The notes beneath the pieces are model-generated. The model did no database searches and was not told where the DNA came from. It saw nothing but the letters and a program-made list of their open reading frames with translations. DNA of 32,470 bases from positions 1 to 32,470 of the forward strand of contig CAMBTV010000005.1 in NCBI GenBank assembly GCA_945870835.1, read 5' to 3'. Positions 1,648-16,412 of the stretch are shown in pieces. Each line of letters starts with the position of its first letter. The first letter of the stretch is position 1. A program made the translations under genes and the position numbers. This DNA comes from Chitinophaga pinensis. Its GTDB lineage: Bacteria > Bacteroidota > Bacteroidia > Chitinophagales > Chitinophagaceae.

Positions 1648-2361
1648 CTACAATTGCTTCAACATAATTTTACGATATTCTACTTTCATTTTTGGCATTA
1701 CATGAACTTGTAATCCTAATACGCCATTGTACTTTCTATTTTTTGCATCCTCATCTGTAACTTCACTCATCAAAACACCATTGATATAATGCTTCAAATG
1801 ATTGTCTTTTACAACAATATGAATTTCATTCCAGTCTCCCTTTTTAATCTTAGCCTTAAGAGAATCTGAATTGCCCAATGAACCAGTAATAGTAGGTTTC
1901 ATGTCAGATTTTAAAACTGATATCTCACCACGTTTCGCTAAAAATCCACGACCACGCTCTTCATAATTCTGACCAGTATAAGTATCGGCTCCATCAATAT
2001 CAGCTTGATACCCTTTTAAAGCAAAGCGAATATTAGGTAGCTCTTCGCTGCGATATTGAACACCGCTATTTCCTTCTGGACTGATGCGATACTGAGCAAT
2101 AAATTCAAAGTTGGTTGGTAATCCACCCCGCCAAATTAAAAAAGTATTTGTTTTTAGTGGTTTTGCTGCAGTAACTTCTCCAACAAAACTTCCATTTTCA
2201 ACTCTCCAAAAAACAGTATCACCCTCCCATCCCTTCATTGTTTTGCCATCAAATATTTTCACAAAACCTTTTGCCTTATTTTTATCTTGAGCATGCAAGG
2301 AAAATATATTTCCTGCTATCAACATAAAAAGAGCTAAACGATAACTTAATTTTTGTATCAT
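1648..2361 (-). CDS. DUF1080 (3-keto-disaccharide hydrolase-type, LamG-like fold) secreted protein
   Basis: 237 aa; N-terminal signal peptide (LALFMLIAGNIFSLHAQ); FVKIFDGKTMKGWEGD, GNSGVQYRSEE, and WNEIHIVVKDNHLKHYINGVLMSEVTDED typical of DUF1080. Confidence 0.88.
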   Translation of the reverse strand: MIQKLSYRLALFMLIAGNIFSLHAQDKNKAKGFVKIFDGKTMKGWEGDTVFWRVENGSFVGEVTAAKPLKTNTFLIWRGGLPTNFEFIAQYRISPEGNSGVQYRSEELPNIRFALKGYQADIDGADTYTGQNYEERGRGFLAKRGEISVLKSDMKPTITGSLGNSDSLKAKIKKGDWNEIHIVVKDNHLKHYINGVLMSEVTDEDAKNRKYNGVLGLQVHVMPKMKVEYRKIMLKQL

Positions 2362-2406
2362 AATTTTTTTTGAAGATGGTTAATGTATGTTTTTTTTCGA
2401 AAAGTT

Positions 2407-3558
2407 TTAAGAAATATTACAATCTTTCCAGCTTCTTGATTTAGCAGAATCCGATACTGCCTGACAAACTTTTTGTGTATCAAGCGCCTCTCTAAAAGTA
2501 GGTGAACAAGGTTCGCCAGTTTCTAAGCTTTTCAGAAAATCTGCAACCTGGTGAACAAAAGAATGTTCATAACCAATGCCCAAACCTGGCACCCACCATT
2601 TATCCATATAGGGATGATCTCCATCGGTAATGTGAATGGAGCGCCATCCTTTGAGTTTTGATTCATCTGCATTATCAAAAAACTCTAAACGGTTTAAATC
2701 ATGTAAGTCCCACCGGATAGAAGCATTGGCTCCATTAATTTCAAAAGTATACAAAGCTTTATGACCACGTGCATATCTAGTAGATTCAAATAAACCCAAT
2801 GACCCATTATTAAAATGACAAAGAAAAGAACAGGCGTCATCGATGGTTACTTCCTGTACTTTTCCGGTCAATTGATGCATCCGTTCTTTTACAAATGTTT
2901 CAGTCATGGCACTCACATCTTTTATTCCTCCATTGAGCCACAAAGCTGTATCGATACAATGAGAAAGTAAATCTCCCAATACACCTGATCCCGCTACTGC
3001 CGCATCCATTCTCCACAAACCCTCTCCCCCTTGTGGAAGATTTTCATTGATCGTCCAGTCTTGTAAAAAATTAGCTCTGTAATGATATATCTTTCCCAAC
3101 TTTCCGGAATCAATAATTTGTTTAGCTAAAGTAACTGCAGGCAGTCTTCGGTAATTGTACCAAACCGTATTTTTTACGCCTGCTTTTTCAATCGCCTCCA
3201 CCATGCCAGTAGATTCTACTAAATCACGCGCAAGTGGTTTTTCACAAAGGATCATTTTTCCTGCTTTTGCCGCTGCAATCGCAATCTCAGCATGCGTATC
3301 ATTGGGAGTGCAAATATCAACTGCATCAATATCTGGACGTTCAATAAGTTTTCTCCAATCTGTTTCAATAGATTCATAGCCCCACTGCTCTGCAAAGGCT
3401 TTTAACTTTGTTTCATTGCGAAAACATACTGCTTTAAGTACTGGTGTATACGCTAAATCAGGAAAAAAATTAGCAATACGAAGATATCCATTGGAATGAG
3501 TTCGACCCATAAAGCCACCTCCGATTAAACCAATGTTGAGTGTTTTTTTTGTTGCCAT
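2407..3558 (-). CDS. Gfo/Idh/MocA family NAD(P)-dependent oxidoreductase (cytoplasmic, no Tat signal)
   Basis: [14 protein letters not shown] Rossmann motif, [35 protein letters not shown]. Confidence 0.93.
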
Positions 3559-3600
3559 TTTAAAAAAAATTAAGACTTACAATTTTATTATTTTTTATTA

Positions 3601-4638
3601 TTATTCAGCTTCATACCAGCCATGTTGATCTCTCACTTTAATCATTGCTGCTAAAATATCATTCCAGGTTTGTTGCTCTGTCATCACTGCATTTGGAAAC
3701 ATACACCCATCCCAACAAATATGTTTGAATGCCTTTGTTAAGGCACCATTGTCATCGCGTAACCAAAAACCTGCATGTTTTGCGATGTCAAGTTTACCAT
3801 TGGGATCTTTGGCTTGGCAATGACGACCCGTTTTGTCGTGAGAACCAGTACCATGTACCGTTCCGTCATTTTGGGCCACATGAAAATCAATGGTCCATGG
3901 GCGAAGTGCATGCGTTAATTTTCTAAGTCCTGCATCCAACAACTCTTGGCTGCTCCAATCAAAATCTGCAGGCAATATTCTGTCTTCGGGACTATTGTAT
4001 CCAAGCAAGTATAAAAGTGTATGTGCCATGTCGGCTTGAAAACCGATATTAGGTCGATCGACTGCTTCTAAAGTATCAATCATTGCTTTCCAACTATGCA
4101 TTCCACCCCAGCAAATCTCTCCTTCTGCAGCTAAGCGTTCGCCATATGATGCGGCCACATCACATGCTTCACGAAAAGTTTCAGCAATCAGCTTTGTGTT
4201 ATTTACTGGATCCAAAGCCCAAGCCTCTGGCTTACTTGCTGAGTCAATACGGATGATACCATTAGGACGTACCCCATATTCACGCAACTTCTGTCCAAAG
4301 TGGCAAGACTTACGCACCATCTCTACAAACACCGCGCGATCTTCTTTACTTCCCATTGCAGGTCCGCCCCAAATAGGAGCCACTAAGCTTCCAATATTTA
4401 AATTAAGAGAAGACACTTTATCGGCTAATTTTTTAATGCCATCATCCGAACTGTCGATATCAATATGTGGCTCAAAAAGTCCGATATCAATTCCGTCAAA
4501 TTTTACGCCATCTACTTCCGCATCAGCAGTGTATTTTAGTAAATCATCAAAAGAAATAGGTGGCTCAGAATCTGGCCCCTTGCCTACAATACCCGGCCAT
4601 GTTGCATTGTGCAGTTTAGGGTAGTTATTTTTTTGCAT
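3601..4638 (-). CDS. Sugar phosphate isomerase/epimerase family TIM-barrel protein (xylose isomerase-like)
   Basis: 345 aa without signal peptide; [42 protein letters not shown] and [24 protein letters not shown] metal-site-like motifs of AP-endonuclease-2/xylose isomerase-like barrels. Confidence 0.85.
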
Positions 4639-4676
4639 GTTGTTCTTTTTATAAATTAAAATAATGAATGAATTTT

Positions 4677-6215
4677 TTATTCCTTAGCAATTGCCACAGG
4701 TCGATAGCCTCCCTTAGATTTAAAATAAAATAAAATTAAAAGATAGCATAAAAACATGAAGGATGGGAAAATAGCTACTGTACGAAGGGCGCTTTTTTTA
4801 GCATCATTTTGAACAGCACTAATTTGATTTACTACTTCTGCCGGGGCAGTTGATAATTTTTTACTGTCTACCGCTTGATAGGATCCAAAGAGTCCTGTTT
4901 TAGATTCAGTTAAATAATTTGCATGAAGGGTAGTATTATTTTTTTGATCGTAAGTAGCAAGATTTTGATCGAGTTGCTTATCCTGAACAAATCCAAGAAT
5001 AACCGCACCAATAACCCCTACACCCATCATACCCACCGCGCCTGTAAAATTAATTGCAAGAGCTCCTCCCTTTGGAAATTGTTCTGATACAACTCCCAAC
5101 ATGGTAGGCCAGAAAAATGTTTTACCCAATGCATAAATAGTAGCCGCAATAATTATTAAATAACCTGTAGAATAAGAAAGGAATACCAACCCGATTACTG
5201 CAACCAATGATCCAGCTACCAATAAGCCGATAGGAGAAAGTTTATGTACAATAGGTCCCGCATAAAAACGAAGTAAAGACATAATAACAGAAGTGTAAAT
5301 CAATACCCATCCACCTTGAAATCCCATTTCCATCATAGCGGGTGTCATCAAATCAGTAATCCAACTATCCGTTCCTAACTCAGTGGTGGCAAGTGGAATC
5401 ATGATCGCTAACAACAGAATAAAAAGTGGTCTTCCAAGAGAACGAACAAAATATCCAAATATACCCGTCAGGGCCAGCGTGATGATAATACTAACGGTGA
5501 AGGACCATTGAAAAAGACTACCTAATTGAAATGAACAAAGCGCAGCGATAATCAATGCGCCTAAAATACCTACTTCTTTTAACATTTCTAGGTAGCTAAC
5601 GCCTGCCTCCACACGCTCATTCACTGGGAAGGATCTCTTTGCGATAATCCAACCATAAACAATTGCAGGTAACAATACAAATCCGATAATTAATTGCCAT
5701 GGAAAATGTTGATTGATCATAAATATCCCTAACAAACCTCCTACTACCATTCCAGCAGGCCAGCCAGCATGTAATATATTTAACCACTTAGTTTTTTCTT
5801 TTGGAAACATCGTGGCTACTACTGGATTCACCACTGCTTCTACTGCTCCATTTCCTAATGCAAATAAAAACGTGCCTAAATAAAGCATCCAATATCCAGT
5901 TGCAAAAATGGTGATCGCCACCGAAACAAGATGGCAGACAAATGCAAAAATCATTGATTTCTTGTAGCCAATTTTATCAATAATTAAACTAAAAAAAACA
6001 ATGCTAATTCCAAAAGGCCAAAATCCAACTCCAAATATTTCTCCTTGTTGCGTTTTACTTAAATCAAACTCTCTACCCCATTGATCCATAATGAATGCAC
6101 GAAAAACAAATCCAAATGCAGTTGCTGTTAATGCAATAAAACATCCCCAAAAAAGTAATTTTTTACTTTTCTCATCATCAGATGATTGGTCGGTATTCAA
6201 TTGTGTAGAATTCAT
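4677..6215 (-). CDS. MFS transporter (sugar-like)
   Basis: 512 aa with multiple hydrophobic segments and a conserved MFS-type layout; located between the two TIM-barrel genes. Confidence 0.88.
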
Positions 6216-6280
6216 ATAGTTTTTTTTAATTAGGGTGAATATTTAAAAAATAAGCAATCGATTAAATTCTTTTCATTCAA

Positions 6281-7132
6281 TTAAAGTCCATGTACTTTGC
6301 CTTGTTGTTTAATAAACGACAGTCCATTTATTGCCATATCCCAAGGTTTTGAATATTCTCGCCACACATTAATAGCATTGGCAAAATCAGGGTCATTTCT
6401 CGAGAAAGCCTCAATGGTAAGCCAACCATCATATTTCACCTCTGCTAGAGAAGAAAAAACTTCGTCCCATTGCACATGTCCATCACCGGGAGTTCCTCGA
6501 TCATTTTCGCTAATGTGAAAGTGTGCCAATATTGGAGCGATTGTTTGAATCGCAGTCCGATTTTTTTTCTCTTCAATATTAGCATGATGGGTATCAAACA
6601 TTGCTTTTACATTTGGATGGGCAGCAGTGTTTATGAGTTTTGTCAACTGTTCTACTGTATTACACAAATAACATTCAAAACGATTCAATGCCTCAAGGGC
6701 AAGAGTGATACCAGCCTGAGCAGCATAATCTCCGGCTGCATGTAAAACTTCTCCGCACCATTTATATTCTTCTTCTAAAGGAGGATGCTGAGCAAAAACT
6801 CCGTGTGCTGAATGAAAGGGACCGCAAAGTACGGTTGCCTTCATATCATGCGCTCTATCTATGCCCCACTTAATTCTATCTAAACCTTTGGCTCTGATAG
6901 CAGCATCTGGACTAACAGGATTTTCATCTTTACCAACTACAAAAACTGCAGTAGTCTCCAATCCAATATTATGTGCGTGATTGCCAAAACGCTGATACGC
7001 TTTATCATCTGGTGAACCTACAAAACATTCTACTCCATCATAACCAATTTGTTTTAATCGATCAATAATTGGTAAAAGATCATCCGACATTACCGCGGAC
7101 CAAACCAGTGTATTAAATCCTATTTTATTCAT
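6281..7132 (-). CDS. Hydroxypyruvate isomerase-like / sugar phosphate isomerase TIM-barrel protein
   Basis: 283 aa; GYDGVECFVGSPDD, ITLALEALNRFECYLCNTVEQL, VKAMFDTHHANIEEK, HFHISENDRGTPGDGHVQWDEVF, WLTIEAFSRNDPDF. Confidence 0.88.
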   Translation of the reverse strand: MNKIGFNTLVWSAVMSDDLLPIIDRLKQIGYDGVECFVGSPDDKAYQRFGNHAHNIGLETTAVFVVGKDENPVSPDAAIRAKGLDRIKWGIDRAHDMKATVLCGPFHSAHGVFAQHPPLEEEYKWCGEVLHAAGDYAAQAGITLALEALNRFECYLCNTVEQLTKLINTAAHPNVKAMFDTHHANIEEKKNRTAIQTIAPILAHFHISENDRGTPGDGHVQWDEVFSSLAEVKYDGWLTIEAFSRNDPDFANAINVWREYSKPWDMAINGLSFIKQQGKVHGL

Positions 7133-7149
7133 GTTTGTAAATTTGAAAA

Positions 7150-8028
7150 TTAATCACGATACGGAACATTAATATCCATTTTACCCGCCCACTTTTTAGG
7201 AATCGGTTTGCCAGCCACAAAATGAAAGGCATTAATAACAAGATGCTGAAAAGATTCCTGATCAAAATCTTCAGGATGCCCCATGGTGGTGAAGAAAAAC
7301 TTTGCCCCATAACTATTGATACCTGTCCATGCTACTGGATTATCATAAGCTTTAGAGTTCTCAGATTTGATTGAATGCCCCATTAATAAAGCAGTAGAGC
7401 CATTAGAAGGAAAATTAGGTAACACCTGATAGAGCCAAGATCTAACATGAAAATTATCATCCACTCCAGTTAGTAAAACATTTTTTGCCTGTGCAGGAAC
7501 AATGCTTACATCAGTAGAAGAATTATGGCCATAATGGGTATGATTATTCTTACCACCCCATCCAGGAGGAGAATTAAAAGCCATTTCACCAAATGCATTC
7601 CATTTTACAAGCGGATGTCCTTTAGGATAATTAAATGAATGAGTAGTAGTTCTAAATCCAATGAGTGGCTTAGCAGTTTTTAAATAGTCCTCTATCAATT
7701 GTACTTGATCTGCTGGAAGTCTTCTCCAGCGAAGAAAAAATACCGCAATATCCGCTTCTTTCAACGCTTCTAATCCTGGAATATTTTCCTCGGAATTATG
7801 ATCTGGAAAAGCTTTTAAAAACTTGGTGCGAAAGCCATAATTTTTCTCTAGCTCAGCAGCTACTTTTGGAAGCGTTGATTCACCACTATATTCATGGTCG
7901 CCAGTTACAAAAACAATAAGTGGCTTTTTTGATGATGACCTCTTTGCTTTTTGTGCAAATCCAACGATGCCCATATAAAGGGAAAGTAATAGTAATAAAA
8001 GGTATTTCAGGTTGATTATTTTTTTCAT
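7150..8028 (-). CDS. ThuA domain-containing secreted protein (class I glutamine amidotransferase-like fold)
   Basis: Signal peptide; KPLIVFVTGDHEYSGESTLPKVAAELEKNYGFRT, KPLIGFRTTTHSFNYPKGHPL, FFFTTMGHPEDFDQESFQHLVINAFHFVAGK. Confidence 0.85.
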   Translation of the reverse strand: MKKIINLKYLLLLLLSLYMGIVGFAQKAKRSSSKKPLIVFVTGDHEYSGESTLPKVAAELEKNYGFRTKFLKAFPDHNSEENIPGLEALKEADIAVFFLRWRRLPADQVQLIEDYLKTAKPLIGFRTTTHSFNYPKGHPLVKWNAFGEMAFNSPPGWGGKNNHTHYGHNSSTDVSIVPAQAKNVLLTGVDDNFHVRSWLYQVLPNFPSNGSTALLMGHSIKSENSKAYDNPVAWTGINSYGAKFFFTTMGHPEDFDQESFQHLVINAFHFVAGKPIPKKWAGKMDINVPYRD

Positions 8029-8072
8029 AAAGTAAAATTTAAATCTAAAAACAATATTTAAAAAAATACAAA

Positions 8073-11000
8073 TTATTTACCAAACGGATGTTGTTTAAGC
8101 AAGTCCTCAGGTGTATAAAAACCTACTTTACCTTTGATAGATGCTCGAACTGCTTTCACCTTATCTGCCGTTACAGCGGGTGCTTTGTTACCAAATGAAT
8201 TTCGTACATAAGTAATTACTGCTGCTACTTCATCATCTTTCAACATACCTTCAAATGGAGTCATTGGCACTTGACCTGGGTATTTTTTACCATTCACTTC
8301 AATTGGTCCATACATTCCTTTGAGTACTAATTTAATAATTCTCTCATCACTACCTAGCACCCAATTAGATCCGGCAACTGGCGGAAACCCAGCTGCTTCA
8401 AGCCCTTTACCATCGGCCTGATGACAGGTTAAACAATAGCCGTCTCTAGAATAAATTGCTTTACCAGCCGCTAAAATTTTATTGTCAACTGCTCCCGGTT
8501 GAGTAGCAGCTAACACTGATTTTTTCTCTGCCATGCCCTGTCCATTCAAATGAGCTACTGATACTTGATAAGGTTTCAACATCCATGAATCCATGGGTTT
8601 TTTACCTGCTTCTAATACTATTGGCAGTCCTTTGTCTTTGTCTAACCAAGAGGCAGACACCATGGATTCCAATCTTACTCTTTCACTTTCATCTTTAGCA
8701 GCATCCATTAATAATTTTGCTTGGTCGGTTACTTGATGTCCAGTAAAACGAAGTACTTCCACAGCCGCAGCTCTCACCTTGAAATCTTTGGCATGAAGCA
8801 ACTGGCGAAGCAATGGTTGATCTACTTTATTAATTCCCCATGTCACCCACAATGCTTCTAATAAATCATGTTCATATTGAGCTGATTTTTTATCCAAATT
8901 AGCTACCCACTTTGTAAGTGCTGGAAGAACTTCAGAAGCTTTGTGCGCTCTTATTTCTCTGCGACTACGGTAACGAGTTCTATATTCAGGAAGTTTTAAA
9001 TTATTCAATAACTCATCAATGCTTGCTCCTGCTACTTTAGCTGGAACAACCAATGGTCTTGAAGGATAAGTAACTCTGTAGATTCTTCCATGGGAATGAT
9101 CACGCAATGGATCTCTTGCATTGTGTTGCATATGACCTATGAGCACGTTGTGCCAATCAGCAATATAAAGCGAACCATCAGGAGCAAATTCTAAATCAAC
9201 TGGACGGTAATTCATGTCAGAAGATTTTACTAAATCTTGACGAAATTTACTTTTATAACCGGCGCCGTCGTCTGAAATAGCATGTTGCTTAGTCCCTAAA
9301 AATCCAATAGTATTGTTAAGTAATAAATCACCTTGTACATCTTCAGGAAAATGTCGGCTAGATACAAATTCAAGTCCGGAGGTTGGTCTTACTCGCTGAC
9401 TTTCCTCAATAAAACTTTTCCCTTTGGGTGTATATTCACCGTACCTTGGTTTTACAGTTCCAGGAATCATCCATGTTACATCCGGTCCTGATGTTTCTTC
9501 GTAAAAAACCTGTCCCCACTCATCAAAAGCAATACCCCAAGGATTAGGAATAGACAATTGTGCAATGCGATCTAATTTTCTGCGATTGATATCATACCTA
9601 AAAAATCCGCCGTTGGTGCCGCGCACAGGTCCATAAGATGTTTCAACATCATTCACAAGAAACACTCCTTGTCCCATATAAATAGCACCCGATGGATCGG
9701 TGGTATAAGCATGGTGAGCATGGTGCGTATCGTGGTCATCAAAACCACTTAAAAGAATTTCTTTGGAATCCGCCTTATCGTCTCCATTGGTGTCTTTTAA
9801 AAGATAAAAGTTGGTACCCTGAGAAAGATACACACCTTCAGGAGCAAGCTCAAATCCAAGAGGAAGTTGCAATCCATCTGCAAAAGTGGTTTGTTTATCT
9901 GCTTTGCCATCCTTATCAGTATCTTCTAAAATAATTAATTTATCATTGGGCTTGGGATCTCCTGGTTTCCAATGAGGATAAGTAGGCATAACGGCTACCC
10001 ATAGACGACCTTTATTATCAAAGGAAATCTGCACCGGATTGGCTAGATCATTAAACTCAGATTCAGAGGCGAACAGTTCAATTTTATAGCCTGGAGGTAC
10101 AGTAAATTTATCCAATGCCTCCTTGCCGTATAGATAGCTAAGGGTTCCATTTCCAGTACTAGTAGCATAATTTGTTTTTACCTCTGTCAATGGAGATGTT
10201 TTTTTATCTGCTGCATCTAGATCCATTTTTACTCCTTTCACTGCTTGCCAGATAGCTTCATCTCTTATCAAAGTCATTTCACGAATCTTAACAATTTCGG
10301 CAGGATAATTATCCGGACCAAATGGATCGTATCTGCGACCAAAAACATGAACTCCATTAGGAATTTTATAATCATTGTGCCACATCCAATTTTTTTCTAA
10401 CACTGCCGCGCGAACCAATTCCCGATGCTGTTCTGCTTTAGCAATTTTTTTTCCAAAAATTCCATCTGCTAGCATTGGGGCAAACTTAGCATAACCAGCT
10501 TCTGTTAACTGAGAACCATCAATAGTAAAGGAGGGAGTAGCATTTTTAAACCACTGACTAGTGGGAGTAAAGACATCTAAAAAATGAACCTTATTTTTTG
10601 CGGTCACTTCTTTCATTGCAGCAGTGTAAAGGGCAAGATTTTTGTTTTCTACTTTACCATTGGGTAAATCAAATTTGCTTGAAAGATCTTCAAATGCAAT
10701 GGGTGAAACTACCGCCAACTGAGGAGCTGATACTCCGTTGTACTTTTGCTTAAGTGTATGTTTAATAAATGCATCCAACTCTGCTTTATAATTTTCTAAC
10801 CCTCCCTTTCCTTGAAAAGATTCGTCGAATCCAAAGAATGCAATGATGACATCTGCTTTGTGCATAGTGATCCATTGATCAGGATATTCTAGAAATCCTT
10901 CGGTTTGAGGACTCTTAGCTAATTCTGTTTGGAATTTTTCAGCACCTGGAAAAGCCCATGGGGTGGGTCTTCCAGAATGAGGCCTAAACCCTGGTGTATT

Positions 11001-11261
11001 TCCTCCATCACACATATTTCGGATATACAACTTACTATCGGGATAACGAAGCTGCATCTCGGTCTCGAAATGCCCGTAATTCATCATCCTAGAACCTAGA
11101 TTATTTCCAATTAAAATAATGTGCGAGCCCTCGGTTATTTTAAGCCCCGTCGTAGATTCAGAATTTTGCATCATAAATGCAGATAGCACAGCTAATGCAA
11201 TCGCAAAAAAAGAAATTTTCAGGTACTTTTTTTTCTTGGTAATGAGGTGCATTGGGTTCAT
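8073..11261 (-). CDS. PVC-type membrane-bound dehydrogenase: N-terminal SGNH-like domain, beta-propeller, HEAT-like region, C-terminal cytochrome c
   Basis: 1062 aa; hydrophobic N-terminus; FTVPPGYKIELFASESEFNDLANPVQISFDNKGRLWVAVMPTYPHWKPGDPKPND propeller start; heme motif CLTCH (codons at 8421-8435) followed by MTPFEGMLKDDEVAAVITYVRNSFG. Confidence 0.88.
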   Translation of the reverse strand: MNPMHLITKKKKYLKISFFAIALAVLSAFMMQNSESTTGLKITEGSHIILIGNNLGSRMMNYGHFETEMQLRYPDSKLYIRNMCDGGNTPGFRPHSGRPTPWAFPGAEKFQTELAKSPQTEGFLEYPDQWITMHKADVIIAFFGFDESFQGKGGLENYKAELDAFIKHTLKQKYNGVSAPQLAVVSPIAFEDLSSKFDLPNGKVENKNLALYTAAMKEVTAKNKVHFLDVFTPTSQWFKNATPSFTIDGSQLTEAGYAKFAPMLADGIFGKKIAKAEQHRELVRAAVLEKNWMWHNDYKIPNGVHVFGRRYDPFGPDNYPAEIVKIREMTLIRDEAIWQAVKGVKMDLDAADKKTSPLTEVKTNYATSTGNGTLSYLYGKEALDKFTVPPGYKIELFASESEFNDLANPVQISFDNKGRLWVAVMPTYPHWKPGDPKPNDKLIILEDTDKDGKADKQTTFADGLQLPLGFELAPEGVYLSQGTNFYLLKDTNGDDKADSKEILLSGFDDHDTHHAHHAYTTDPSGAIYMGQGVFLVNDVETSYGPVRGTNGGFFRYDINRRKLDRIAQLSIPNPWGIAFDEWGQVFYEETSGPDVTWMIPGTVKPRYGEYTPKGKSFIEESQRVRPTSGLEFVSSRHFPEDVQGDLLLNNTIGFLGTKQHAISDDGAGYKSKFRQDLVKSSDMNYRPVDLEFAPDGSLYIADWHNVLIGHMQHNARDPLRDHSHGRIYRVTYPSRPLVVPAKVAGASIDELLNNLKLPEYRTRYRSRREIRAHKASEVLPALTKWVANLDKKSAQYEHDLLEALWVTWGINKVDQPLLRQLLHAKDFKVRAAAVEVLRFTGHQVTDQAKLLMDAAKDESERVRLESMVSASWLDKDKGLPIVLEAGKKPMDSWMLKPYQVSVAHLNGQGMAEKKSVLAATQPGAVDNKILAAGKAIYSRDGYCLTCHQADGKGLEAAGFPPVAGSNWVLGSDERIIKLVLKGMYGPIEVNGKKYPGQVPMTPFEGMLKDDEVAAVITYVRNSFGNKAPAVTADKVKAVRASIKGKVGFYTPEDLLKQHPFGK

Positions 11262-11340
11262 TTTTTTAAATTAAAGTTCAGAGTAAGGTTTTAAAAATTC
11301 ATATAACATTCAACTTCTTTTGGTTCGATAATTTTCATTT

Positions 11341-12555
11341 TTATAAAATCATATCTGGATTGCCTGGTCCAAAATGTTTTAGTATTACAATTGGATCAGT
11401 AGCAGAAGCATTGGAAATAGTCACCCCATCTTTTGCTGCATTTTCGCTGATAAAAAATTCATCATTGGTCAACTGGCCGTAACGAATAAGTGCTGGAGTT
11501 TCAATATCCCAAACGCCCATTTTTCCATGCCCTTGCATTACAATAATTCCATACGCTGCACTATCTTTTATAGTAACTGTTTGACCAGGAAGAACAGTCA
11601 ACTCTTTGGCTCCAAAAGCATCTGATTTATAACAAATCCAATTTTCAATATATCCCTGCGATTTCATTTCATCGATTGCTTTTACAGGCTTCGGTGCCAT
11701 AAATCTATTGGCCATTGTATTTGGATCTACATTTAATTCCCAGTCCAATACATCTATCAATGCATCGTAATCTCCTTTACTTTCAGCCGGTGTTCCATTC
11801 CATAACAATTCGTCAGGAATGATTGCTTCGTTAACCAAGGATTGATACATAGCAAATACATCCGACGCCTTTTGAGGCTCGTAGGTACACATACTGCCAG
11901 GCGCATGAAGTAATCCTGGCGGCACATCCCAGCCAGTGCCAGGCTCTAGTCGATAAGCCTGAGAATAGTTAGTGATTTTATTATCACCTTTCGAAAAATT
12001 AACTAGACACTCTTTAATTTGTTCTTTGGTTGTACCAGGTGCAATACCAATAAAAGTATAAGGGAAGTCACCACCATGATTATTGAGTTGCGGTGGAAAA
12101 TAATAAGCTTCTGGTTTTCCCTTCTGACCAATCAATGCTGCTTTTTCATCATTGTGATGCACATGATGTGGCAATGGTCCCATGTTGTCAAAAAACTTTG
12201 AATACATCGGCCAGCTTTTATATTCATTCCAAAGGCGATCTCCAATTAATGCACCTTTTAGTTCATCAATTGCATCCTTCAATAAAAAAAGTTGCTCTTT
12301 TCCTCCGTCATTAAAAACTACTGCACTGAGTCCTTCATTCTCTCCTGTCAATGGTCCGTTTTTTGCAGGAGTAGTAGATGAAAGCCAGCGTTCGTCTATG
12401 CCTCCACGTATACCACCTAATACATAGTAGTCATCAGGATGTAATTTAATTCTGCGACCAGGAACACAGAATGATCTGGGTACCCATGTAGGTGCTAAAC
12501 GTACTATTCCTTTTCCTTGATCAAGCGCTCTTTGTGCTAAACTTTTTGTGTCCAT
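11341..12555 (-). CDS. Cupin / type I phosphomannose isomerase-like protein
   Basis: 404 aa; LPHHVHHNDEKAALIGQKGKPEAYYFPPQ and LEPGTGWDVPPGLLHAPGS resemble a His/Glu cupin metal site and the PMI-type WDVPPGLLHAPG segment. No signal peptide. Confidence 0.65.
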   Translation of the reverse strand: MDTKSLAQRALDQGKGIVRLAPTWVPRSFCVPGRRIKLHPDDYYVLGGIRGGIDERWLSSTTPAKNGPLTGENEGLSAVVFNDGGKEQLFLLKDAIDELKGALIGDRLWNEYKSWPMYSKFFDNMGPLPHHVHHNDEKAALIGQKGKPEAYYFPPQLNNHGGDFPYTFIGIAPGTTKEQIKECLVNFSKGDNKITNYSQAYRLEPGTGWDVPPGLLHAPGSMCTYEPQKASDVFAMYQSLVNEAIIPDELLWNGTPAESKGDYDALIDVLDWELNVDPNTMANRFMAPKPVKAIDEMKSQGYIENWICYKSDAFGAKELTVLPGQTVTIKDSAAYGIIVMQGHGKMGVWDIETPALIRYGQLTNDEFFISENAAKDGVTISNASATDPIVILKHFGPGNPDMIL

Positions 12556-12589
12556 TGAAAATTTATTGTTGTTGTTAAATCAAAAAATA

Positions 12590-13654
12590 TTATAAATTAT
12601 TTATAAAAGATTGAATACTATTTTCATTCGTCAATACATTCAGCTCTAAATCATAGTGTCTACTTTCTGCCGGTTCAAGGAATAGTAGTGTTCCTTCCTT
12701 TCTAGCTTTTGCTTGTCCAATAGGTGGATTTGTACCTGGTTCAATACCTGTTACATATTCCCCTTTAGCAAAATGTTGCCAACTCGTTAACCAGGGCAAT
12801 TGCTTTTTGGGAAATTGCAAAGTGACAGCAATTCCAATTTTTTTATTTTGAATTCCACAAAAACAATTGCCTTCTTTGTTAGCAGCGATGTCAATAAAAT
12901 CTACTGCCTCACCACTACCGTTGTGTGCTTCCAATGTATCTGGACATTTTTTAAAATGATCCGTTGAAACGGAGGTTTCTTTATTTGCAATACTTTCCTG
13001 AACTGACTTTTGATCACGATAAAGTAAAATCGCTCCTTCATCTGCTAAAGGCCAACCAAAATTGCAATGATATATCAACATATGCGGAGCCGCAATATTA
13101 CCTCGGTTAATTACTTCATCATGAATATGAATGGTGGGTTTACCTAAAGTGGCAGTAATGGTTCTTCTTAATTCAAGACTAGGGCCAAAAATCTGCGTCT
13201 GCTTAATTACACCAGTAATGCTCATGGTGAATTTTCCTTTTGCAGGATCCGGTTGAATAATAGATTCAATTTCTGCAGGAATATTGCTGATCATTCCATG
13301 TAAACCCCATTCACCCGATTCGTCTTGATCAGGCCCACCAACATGCGAAAGTCCGCAGGTAGTAAGCAGGCCTCCGCCGAATGTTCTTAACCAATCTAAG
13401 CCCTTATGAGAAAAAGGTTGTGGAGTACTTATTCCAGAATGATTGAGCCATGCAAGACTATACTGATTATAAAAAGCATCGGCAATATCCATTGCACGAT
13501 CAATCACCACTTTAAATCGAAGTCCCGAACCAGTATTGATCCAGGCAATGCGAACACCCCTACCTAAGCCATTGTCAAGTACAGCAGTTTCAATACCACC
13601 CACCTGTGACACATTGGAAAGTTTATCACTCCAAATTTCTACTTGTGATTCCAT
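12590..13654 (-). CDS. DUF4432 / aldose-1-epimerase-like (galactose mutarotase fold) protein
   Basis: 354 aa; VVIDRAMDIADAFYNQYSLAWLNHSG, TFGGGLLTTCGLSHVGGP, WGLHGMISNIPAE, HMLIYHCNFGWPLADEGA, GIEPGTNPP. Confidence 0.8.
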   Translation of the reverse strand: MESQVEIWSDKLSNVSQVGGIETAVLDNGLGRGVRIAWINTGSGLRFKVVIDRAMDIADAFYNQYSLAWLNHSGISTPQPFSHKGLDWLRTFGGGLLTTCGLSHVGGPDQDESGEWGLHGMISNIPAEIESIIQPDPAKGKFTMSITGVIKQTQIFGPSLELRRTITATLGKPTIHIHDEVINRGNIAAPHMLIYHCNFGWPLADEGAILLYRDQKSVQESIANKETSVSTDHFKKCPDTLEAHNGSGEAVDFIDIAANKEGNCFCGIQNKKIGIAVTLQFPKKQLPWLTSWQHFAKGEYVTGIEPGTNPPIGQAKARKEGTLLFLEPAESRHYDLELNVLTNENSIQSFINNL

Positions 13655-13684
13655 TGATTTAATTCTTATAAAATCGATTATATT

Positions 13685-13727
13685 ATTAAATTAGACGAAA
13701 GGGAGATTACCTTTCGTCTAATTTAAT
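13685..13727. other. Perfect 18-bp inverted repeat (stem-loop) in intra-operon spacer
   Basis: ATTAAATTAGACGAAAGG - GAGATTA - CCTTTCGTCTAATTTAAT; lies in the 97-nt gap between the stop at 13752 and the start at 13654 (minus strand). Confidence 0.9.
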
Positions 13728-13751
13728 AAACCCAATTAGCCTCTATTTTAT

Positions 13752-16412
13752 TTATTTATAAATCGGACTCTGATCATTGCCGCCCGCTTTAAGATATGCG
13801 ACCAAATCTTTTAGTTCGTTGCTATTTAATCTATTGATCATACCAGGAAGCATCGAAGAAATTTCGGATACTCTAGTCCTTAACACATCTTTTTTATTCA
13901 ACTCCCTAACAAATTCAGGAGCAAAAGGATTTTGAGAAATATAGTATTTATTATTATCCTGTTTAATTAGTCTGCCCAATACAGATCCACCTTGCCTTAA
14001 ATAAAATACGGTAGAGCCAAATTGATCTGAAATGGTTTTACTTGGATTTATAATTGCTTCCAGCATATCCTTAGTAGAAAATCTTGATCCAAGTTGAGTA
14101 AGATCTGGTCCAGATATTCCTCCCTCGCCTTTAATTTGGTGACAAGAAATACACATAGAAGCCGCGAACATCGACTTACCCCTTTCAAAATTACGAGTAC
14201 CCGTTGCACTATCCACTACTTCGAGAGCGTTTTTCAATCTCCAATCTCTACCAGGACCAACAGGCATAACTGTACCTACTTTAATACCTGCTCTTGAATT
14301 CAATACAATGGAGTCTCCAGAAATTTTATTAAAATATTCAAAACGATCTTTGGAAACATTTGCCAATGCTGTTTTTCTTGCCGTATTGATGAAGCCTACA
14401 AAACTAACTCCACCCTTATATCCAAAAGCAGTATAAAACCATTGGAAATATTTTTCTTGCAATTCAGGTGTCCAACCATTCTTTGCCTGTGTCAACACAT
14501 TTGCATACCAAGTCTGCTGCAGAGGAGGAATCCTTGAAAGCATAGCAGCGATGTCCATACCATACTGCGGATTTCTAAGAATCAAATCAGCTGACTCAGA
14601 AATTGTTTTCTGTTGAGCATCTGTATTGTCTTTTGCAATGGCCAATAATGCCATTGTTTTTTCTACTACATTGGGTGCATCTACATAAACCAACAACTTA
14701 CTCAACTCACGGTTGAGGTAATTCGATTTTGCAGGAAATTGAGGATTCAAATAAGTAGCGACTACCTTTTTAGAAGCAGCATCGGGTTCTCCCATGCGAG
14801 TGAAAACCAATTCAAAGGCACGTAATAAATCCAACTGCTGAGGTTCAGTTAGCTGTGTGTAATTTATATTGGTCAATGATTTTATTAACTGAGCTTTTAC
14901 TGCTGGAGTACCTCTTCTTGCCAATGCAATGGTAGACTGAATAAGAGTGATAGGATCTTTTTCTGAAAGCACCTTGTTTTCCCACTGAGCCAAAGGCTGA
15001 GTTTCAACAGCTATTCTTGCAGCATATCTTACAAAACGATCTTTATCCTTTAAATAAGGCCATGCAAAATCTACTGCCCCTGCCTTGGGTGCACCATGGA
15101 AATCTTCCAACTTACGTCTTGCTTTTAGTGCATCCGTTAATTCAGGTACCGGTAACTTTTCATTGTTCCCAGTATTATCACCATAGTAAACCCTATATAA
15201 ATCAGATTCTAATCTTCGGCCGCCTGTTAAAAAATATAGTGCTCCATCTGGACCAACCACACCATCTGTTAATGGTAAAGGAGATCCTGAAATAAATTCT
15301 TCTCCGGTAGTTTTATAGGTTGCTCCATCTGGCTCGGTGTGAATGGCATAAATAATTCCAAAGCTCCAATCAAATGCAAACATTGCCTTGCGGTACTTTT
15401 TTGGAAAACGAGCATTCGCTCCTGAAACCAAATTAGTTGGAGAACCTTGGCCTACATTAATCGCAGCAGGTAAATTATCTGGATAATTCGGAGACCATTT
15501 ATCGGTACCCACTCTCCAGCCAAATTCTCCACCACTTGTTACGTGAAGTATTCTAGTAGGACGGTACCAAGGTGTGCCAAAATCCCATTCCATATCAGAA
15601 TCGTAGGCAAACATTTCGCCTTGGTCATTAAAAGCAAGGTCATAAGGATTACGAAAACCAGAGGCTATCATTTCCCAATTTGTTCCTGTAGAATCCACAT
15701 GAGCAAGCCAGCCTCCGTGAGCAGTTACCGTATTATCGTGTCCGTTTGGATCTTTAATAAGTGGAAAAAGATTGTCAATATTACCATCTGGAATATTGCG
15801 ATAACTATTCATTTTTGGAATTTTCGTAAAATTTCCAGCAATTACATAAAGAGATTTTTTATCGGGCGACAATACCACACTATGCGGTCCATGTTCTCCA
15901 TCTCCATCCATGGCCTTCAAGAAGGTAACTTTATCAAACTGATCATCTCCGTTGGTGTCCTGTAGTCTGTACAAACCACTTCCCTTTTTAAAAGTAGCTT
16001 TGGGACCAACATGATTATTTATCACTACATAAAGACTATTGAACGCATATAGAAGACCATGTGCATAGCCCATGGATATACCAGTATCAGATGAAATTTT
16101 CAATGCCTCCACTTTAATTTTAGTAACTGTATCTCCGATTGCAGGCACTTTCATTCTAAATAATCCACCATATTGGTCAGACGCTATGATACGTCCTTTG
16201 TCATCAAAAGTCATAGAAACCCAAGAGCCTTCTCCGTTTTCAGAAGGACCATGTAAATGATCTGCATGAAAACCAGCAGGTAATTTAAGATTGGCTATTT
16301 TCGGATCGGTAGAAACCTGCACTTCTTTTTCCCGATTAATCGTAAAGGAAATGCAAATAATAACAACAGTTGTAAATAATAACAACCAAACTGAGGATGA
16401 TTTTTGTTTCAT
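13752..16412 (-). CDS. Secreted beta-propeller (PQQ-dependent sugar dehydrogenase-like) protein with Planctomycete-type heme-binding c-type cytochrome domain
   Basis: 886 aa; hydrophobic N-terminus; GFHADHLHGPSENGEGSWVSMTFDDKGRIIASDQYGGLFRM; heme motif CISCH (14139-14153) followed by GEGGISGPDLTQLGSRFSTKDMLEAIINPSKTISDQF. Confidence 0.87.
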   Translation of the reverse strand: MKQKSSSVWLLLFTTVVIICISFTINREKEVQVSTDPKIANLKLPAGFHADHLHGPSENGEGSWVSMTFDDKGRIIASDQYGGLFRMKVPAIGDTVTKIKVEALKISSDTGISMGYAHGLLYAFNSLYVVINNHVGPKATFKKGSGLYRLQDTNGDDQFDKVTFLKAMDGDGEHGPHSVVLSPDKKSLYVIAGNFTKIPKMNSYRNIPDGNIDNLFPLIKDPNGHDNTVTAHGGWLAHVDSTGTNWEMIASGFRNPYDLAFNDQGEMFAYDSDMEWDFGTPWYRPTRILHVTSGGEFGWRVGTDKWSPNYPDNLPAAINVGQGSPTNLVSGANARFPKKYRKAMFAFDWSFGIIYAIHTEPDGATYKTTGEEFISGSPLPLTDGVVGPDGALYFLTGGRRLESDLYRVYYGDNTGNNEKLPVPELTDALKARRKLEDFHGAPKAGAVDFAWPYLKDKDRFVRYAARIAVETQPLAQWENKVLSEKDPITLIQSTIALARRGTPAVKAQLIKSLTNINYTQLTEPQQLDLLRAFELVFTRMGEPDAASKKVVATYLNPQFPAKSNYLNRELSKLLVYVDAPNVVEKTMALLAIAKDNTDAQQKTISESADLILRNPQYGMDIAAMLSRIPPLQQTWYANVLTQAKNGWTPELQEKYFQWFYTAFGYKGGVSFVGFINTARKTALANVSKDRFEYFNKISGDSIVLNSRAGIKVGTVMPVGPGRDWRLKNALEVVDSATGTRNFERGKSMFAASMCISCHQIKGEGGISGPDLTQLGSRFSTKDMLEAIINPSKTISDQFGSTVFYLRQGGSVLGRLIKQDNNKYYISQNPFAPEFVRELNKKDVLRTRVSEISSMLPGMINRLNSNELKDLVAYLKAGGNDQSPIYK

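Follow-up and report, generated by a model that had tools for sequence, protein, structure and literature searches.

The window, a stretch of 32,470 nucleotides from Chitinophaga pinensis, opens contig 5 of a 2.8-Mb genome that is 97% complete. It carries a block of ten genes, all on the minus strand (1648–16412), in the order A, DUF4432, ORF404, B, ThuA, TIM1, MFS, TIM2, GFO and DUF1080. Proteins A (13752–16412; 886 aa) and B (8073–11261; 1062 aa) are each encoded by an intact open reading frame. Between them lie genes for DUF4432, an aldose 1-epimerase-like protein (12590–13654), and for ORF404, a cytoplasmic, cupin-like protein of 404 aa (11341–12555). B is followed by its two partners, a ThuA-like protein with a signal peptide (7150–8028) and TIM1, a cytoplasmic, ketose-epimerase-like protein of family PF01261 (6281–7132). 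An MFS transporter gene (4677–6215) separates these from three core members of the A module: TIM2, a second cytoplasmic PF01261 protein (3601–4638); GFO, an NAD(P)-dependent oxidoreductase of the Gfo/Idh/MocA type (2407–3558); and DUF1080, a protein with a signal peptide that belongs to the 3-keto-disaccharide hydrolase family PF06439 (1648–2361). Reading N-termini by eye, we found export-like sequences in A, B, ThuA and DUF1080, and no signal peptide in DUF4432, ORF404, TIM1, TIM2 or GFO. A promoter scan remained at chance level.

An earlier note on this DNA had placed a CISCH motif at 14139–14153 and a CLTCH motif at 8421–8435 in two exported propeller proteins. Both translate exactly as claimed on the minus strand and form the heme attachment sites of A (C754–H758) and B (C943–H947), respectively. 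The two cytochrome contexts are distinct, as the note had also proposed: the heme domain of A is of the TIGR02603 type, that of B a class I cytochrome c, and both pass family cut-offs, so that neither is a chance motif.

Protein A comprises a six-bladed propeller of sGDH fold (approximately residues 35–415), HEAT-like helices (approximately 425–700) and the TIGR02603 heme-c domain (approximately 740–875). It appears to be exported, judging by its signal- or lipoprotein-like N-terminus. The signal ends in Ser/Ala-Cys in many A orthologues, which is suggestive of lipoproteins among them; the copy in the window has no clear lipobox. A Pfam scan of A gave no GSDH (PF07995) match, sequence searches of the propeller against the PDB by phmmer and HMM returned heme and HEAT matches only, and A scores below the TIGR02604 cut-off (70.1 versus 122.2 bits) and has lost that family's Arg at position −8 of the last PDG strand. 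Profile alignment nevertheless relates A to the sGDH family (P = 1.9 × 10−6). An AlphaFold2 model built from 60 homologues (mean pLDDT 82.4, pTM 0.80; heme-motif loop 754–772 below 50) points the same way: the top 20 Foldseek matches in the PDB are all PQQ sugar dehydrogenases and an AA12 enzyme, led by 8re0 (best, E = 9.9 × 10−12), 2ism, 1cq1 and 3a9g, with E values of about 10−11 to 10−10. Lower matches are non-quinoproteins, including HHIP, Diels-Alderases, lactonases and strictosidine synthase, so the fold alone is no proof of a quinoprotein.

We then mapped sites by profile alignment to four solved dehydrogenases and by one mixed alignment. The catalytic H144 of sGDH corresponds to H174 of A and the R228-N229 dyad to R254-N255, and all three residues are invariant in 124 of 124 A homologues, with identities down to 36%. 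The same is true of E173, H177, D258, D271, D273, E275, D348, W349 and R399. Equal conservation is found at 61 of the 381 propeller positions, and the chance that the three named sites would all be invariant is about 0.4%. In sGDH, K377, R406 and R408 anchor the carboxylates of PQQ. The corresponding positions of A are S350, P380 and T382, so these anchors are missing, and the Gly247-Pro248 Ca2+ loop of sGDH is replaced by D273-M274 within a conserved acidic DSDMEW loop. In the comparison with PQQ sugar dehydrogenases that the earlier note had proposed, A matches in fold and catalytic sites and differs in the anchors and Ca2+ loop, and the model of B is too poor to judge a pocket.

A therefore resembles sGDH and YliI/Asd (GSDH, PF07995) in its six-bladed propeller, catalytic His, Arg-Asn dyad and export, and differs from sGDH in lacking the Lys377/Arg406/Arg408 anchors, the Gly-Pro loop and a GSDH match and in adding a HEAT region and a fused heme c. 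A parallel for this pattern is offered by the fungal AA12 enzymes, which have the sGDH fold minus several PQQ contacts and share with A the His, the Arg/Asx pair and an acidic Ca2+ site. CcSDH requires PQQ even though several of the PQQ-binding residues of sGDH are missing from it (PMC4133262), and TrAA12 binds Ca2+ through Ser240/Asp242 instead of Gly-Pro while keeping Arg/Asx (PMC6881810). CcSDH is also fused to a cytochrome, an AA8 domain with heme b; A, by contrast, is bacterial, carries a heme c of the TIGR02603 type and is too distant in sequence for an AA12 family match. On these alignments, A would retain the catalytic positions with a cofactor clamp unlike that of sGDH, and PQQ is a plausible cofactor.

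The heme domain of A exceeds the cut-offs of TIGR02603 (87.8 versus 68.15 bits) and Pfam Cytochrom_C (36.3 versus 21.3 bits). C754, C757, H758 and M854 are kept wherever aligned in 123 of 123 A homologues. A solved relative of this domain is KustD1711 (7zs0; profile E = 6.6 × 10−11), whose axial Met292 aligns with M854, predicting His758/Met854 ligation of the heme in A with M854 as the axial Met. KustD1711, from the anammox bacterium Kuenenia stuttgartiensis, has Met292 as distal ligand and hemes near +350 mV with Ca2+ (PMC11791136). The likeness extends to a homologous heme domain with a shared axial Met; the high, Ca2+-tuned potential is a feature of KustD1711 itself, which has two heme domains, lacks a propeller and is no sugar protein.

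Protein B is built differently. A pseudo-SGNH N-terminus precedes a DUF7133/TIGR02604 propeller (approximately residues 380–735), a HEAT_2 region and the class I cytochrome c. B fits both propeller families (DUF7133, 239.4 versus 27 bits; TIGR02604, 222.8 versus 122.2 bits), whereas A fits TIGR02603, and its heme domain passes the Cytochrom_C cut-off (39.0 versus 21.3 bits) and also that of Cytochrome_CBB3. M1000 is the likely axial Met, and the hemes of A and B both look to be of the electron-transfer (His/Met) type. In the propeller, Pro takes the place of the dyad Arg (Pro-Asn) in every one of the 16 close orthologues, but B retains the His cluster, the Asn and, at −8 of the last strand, the Arg. 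With the dyad Arg lost, we rejected as the main reading that B is a PQQ enzyme equal to A. The model of B has low confidence (a mean pLDDT of 60.7, with most of the propeller under 50), and its fold search matched the heme, SGNH and helical-repeat parts only, leaving it uninformative on the propeller pocket.

The SGNH-like domain, which the earlier note had not described, lies within the N-terminal 270 residues of B (residues 40–270) and has fold matches to esterases; its Pfam GDSL_2 score is below cut-off. The catalytic Ser and His are gone in 16 of 16 orthologues (GNN for GDS and DGSQ for DxxH), and the domain is probably a binding domain. B is probably a diverged propeller–heme protein that co-travels with A as part of a second module and has a different chemistry.

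Gene neighbourhoods support this division into modules. We collected 80 A-bearing loci from public genomes, some on short contigs, so that the counts are lower bounds. DUF4432, the most frequent immediate neighbour of A, was found near it in 49 loci, ORF404 in 48, DUF1080 in 46, TIM2 in 41 and GFO in 40. Away from window-like loci the A module reads A-DUF4432-ORF404-TIM2-GFO, with DUF1080 at either end. A B orthologue (at least 65% identity) lies near A in 18 of the 80 loci; outside window-like loci, the companions of B are ThuA and/or TIM1. The window has the B-ThuA-TIM1 module and the MFS gene inserted within the A module; the MFS gene had one weak match at its position among the 80 loci and is thus not conserved there. 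In a sample of 396 Bacteroidota genomes, A occurred in 29, B in 29 and both in 23 (Fisher P = 2 × 10−26, inflated by shared descent). Close orthologues of ORF404 were found in 10 of these genomes, all 10 of which carry A and B (P = 9 × 10−13, likewise inflated). ORF404 has no match in Pfam, NCBIfam or the PDB, and its orthologues are 74–95% identical between genera. More distant homologues (36–39% identity) in other Bacteroidota families mostly adjoin GH-like, cupin and aldo-keto reductase genes; in the stretches read they were never beside a GMC gene, so no exchange of GMC for A was seen there.

The composition of the A module invites the question of where glycoside oxidation takes place. One answer is that the substrate is imported and oxidized in the cytoplasm by GFO, with A and B acting elsewhere, for example in converting released aldoses to lactones. 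GFO is core to the module, the closest named family to it is levoglucosan dehydrogenase (341 bits), and an MFS carrier lies within the local operon. However, that score is below the equivalog cut-off of 650 bits, the MFS gene is not part of the conserved module, and the DUF1080 protein of the block is exported, so a keto-glycoside should form outside the cytoplasm. We regard this route as improbable.

A second answer places the oxidation in GMC flavoproteins. The earlier note had stated that the block encodes no GMC flavoprotein, and this is confirmed. Its further suggestion, that the propellers stand in place of GMC, holds for the block and fails for the genome, which has four GMC loci outside the block, three with a Tat-type partner subunit. 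On contig C118, a complete parallel cluster comprises GMC, a Tat-type subunit, a TIM barrel, MFS, GFO and a second TIM barrel; contig C240 has GMC, subunit, DUF1080 and a Tat-type protein resembling a Gfo/Idh/MocA enzyme. Among the 396 genomes, GMC is present in 27 of the 29 that carry A, versus 147 of the other 367. Given the four GMC genes here and this co-occurrence across Bacteroidota, a genome-wide swap of A for GMC is refuted.

These findings fit a relay in which A and/or B accept electrons from GMC/flavin glycoside 3-dehydrogenases encoded elsewhere and the propellers only bind glycan or a partner protein. In favour of such a relay, no CxxCH gene adjoins the GMC genes on the stretches examined, GMC is enriched in A genomes, and both hemes are of the electron-transfer type. 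Yet across the 80 loci, the only GMC sequence at a distance of up to about 9 kb from A was a fragment at the edge of one locus; GMC searches also came up empty in two genomes that carry A, and a relay needs no invariant pocket of acidic, His and Arg residues such as A possesses. We consider a relay rather unlikely. The local arrangement instead presents the block in the window as a second cluster of the GMC/LacABC plan in which A fills the role of the oxidase, which backs the inference of the earlier note as far as it concerns A. In lactose clusters of Caulobacter and Pedobacter, LacABC acts together with DUF1080, epimerases and a reductase (PMC9007349). LacABC-type clusters and the block share an exported oxidase, DUF1080, TIM-barrel epimerases and a Gfo/Idh/MocA enzyme; the oxidase is GMC plus a partner subunit there and the propeller–heme protein A here.

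Related propellers in the same genome also bear on function. A protein with both TIGR02604 and TIGR02603 matches (L169) exceeds the Pfam GSDH cut-off (27.4 versus 25 bits) and so bridges the families. Among the DUF7133-type propellers, L006 carries a cytochrome, and L005 and L011 carry azurin-type copper domains. Such interchangeable heme and copper carriers suggest that the propellers do redox work, and the swap is expected if the C-terminus is an exchangeable electron carrier, which counts in favour of a dehydrogenase. The genome also encodes a clear PQQ dehydrogenase with a cytochrome insert (L017, contig C120, 1024–3228; PF01011, 616 bits), making PQQ use plausible. A search for pqqC gave no match in this genome and none in the control genomes either, so the result does not speak for absence of the gene; PQQ may be taken up from outside.

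On contig C121, a single protein (L005, 305–3220) joins ThuA, DUF7133, HEAT and azurin-type copper domains, with copper in the place of the heme of B; ThuA, the neighbour of B in the window, is fused here. On contigs C109 and C71, the paralogous propellers L011 and L012 end in an azurin-type copper domain and a cytochrome c, respectively, each preceded by an open reading frame resembling a DUF1080-type protein.

The sole purified relative that we found in the literature suggests another activity. Lac161_ORF7 (TIGR02604, HEAT_2 and Cytochrom_C), which shares its domain types with B when the two are compared by domain content, released glucose from lactose with a Km of 1.8 mM and was reported as a β-galactosidase (PMC5342196). 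This counts against a dehydrogenase and raises the prospect that the propeller is a hydrolase or lyase that cuts glycosidic bonds, the heme being regulatory or vestigial; the many invariant carboxylates of A (D271, D273, E275 and D348) would suit such an enzyme. The reported activity is based on one coupled glucose assay (PMC5342196), however, and the heme cysteines and axial ligands of A show no more variation than its propeller site does, paralogues exchange heme for azurin-type copper, and the top fold matches of A are dehydrogenases. A hydrolase or lyase thus seems to us an improbable explanation. As the earlier note had remarked of PVC-type dehydrogenase proteins, neither cofactor nor substrate is generally established: our literature search found no paper that settles which cofactor TIGR02604/DUF7133 proteins use or which reaction they catalyze.

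Collectively, we judge the chances to be about even that A works in the periplasm as a quinoprotein-like dehydrogenase of sugars or glycosides and feeds its own heme. Its top fold matches, invariant sites, the L169 bridge, synteny with DUF1080, GFO and TIM barrels, linkage to ORF404, the mirroring of LacABC lactose clusters and the CcSDH precedent for PQQ without the usual contacts all argue for this assignment. The earlier proposal that one or both propellers oxidize sugar is accordingly favoured for A, with its fold, invariant His/Arg/Asn, His/Met heme and clustering without GMC, and disfavoured for B, in which the dyad Arg is Pro. Against a quinoprotein stand the missing anchors, Ca2+ loop and GSDH match and a fold common to non-quinoproteins. 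The regiochemistry also tells against an sGDH-like enzyme: sGDH oxidizes the C1 of aldoses, and DUF1080 partners need 3-keto-glycosides.

As a dehydrogenase of sGDH fold, A would act in the periplasm or at the outer surface. Its propeller would hold, beside the general base H174 and the R254-N255 dyad, a cofactor of quinone type, with PQQ plus Ca2+ the likeliest choice. Electrons from the oxidation of a sugar or glycoside would flow by way of the His758/Met854 heme of A into the respiratory chain. Cleavage of the oxidized glycoside would fall to the DUF1080 protein, which is exported as well, and cytoplasmic processing of the released sugar or keto-sugar to DUF4432, ORF404, TIM2 and GFO. Here the fold derives from the model and the heme ligands from homology, and we infer the cofactor, substrate, reaction and direction of electron flow. 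More speculatively, A could found a new family: heme-fused glycoside dehydrogenases of quinoprotein type, which oxidize a non-anomeric carbon, bind their cofactor unlike sGDH and replace GMC/LacABC in a pathway of DUF1080, ORF404, TIM barrels and GFO across Bacteroidota; we hold this extension to be doubtful.

Propeller proteins annotated as 'PVC-type heme-binding' are many and their chemistry is unestablished. A is a tractable member: its module of six genes is conserved, its candidate active site is invariant and its heme is defined, which together yield testable predictions. If the dehydrogenase assignment is true, Bacteroidota would have a second, quinoprotein-like route, parallel to GMC, into the recently recognized oxidative (3-keto-glycoside) pathways. 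In the closest relative found, a Chitinophagaceae MAG (L037) whose A copy is 88% identical to that of the window, an extra tandem copy of A (3677–6289; 77% identical) lies directly upstream.
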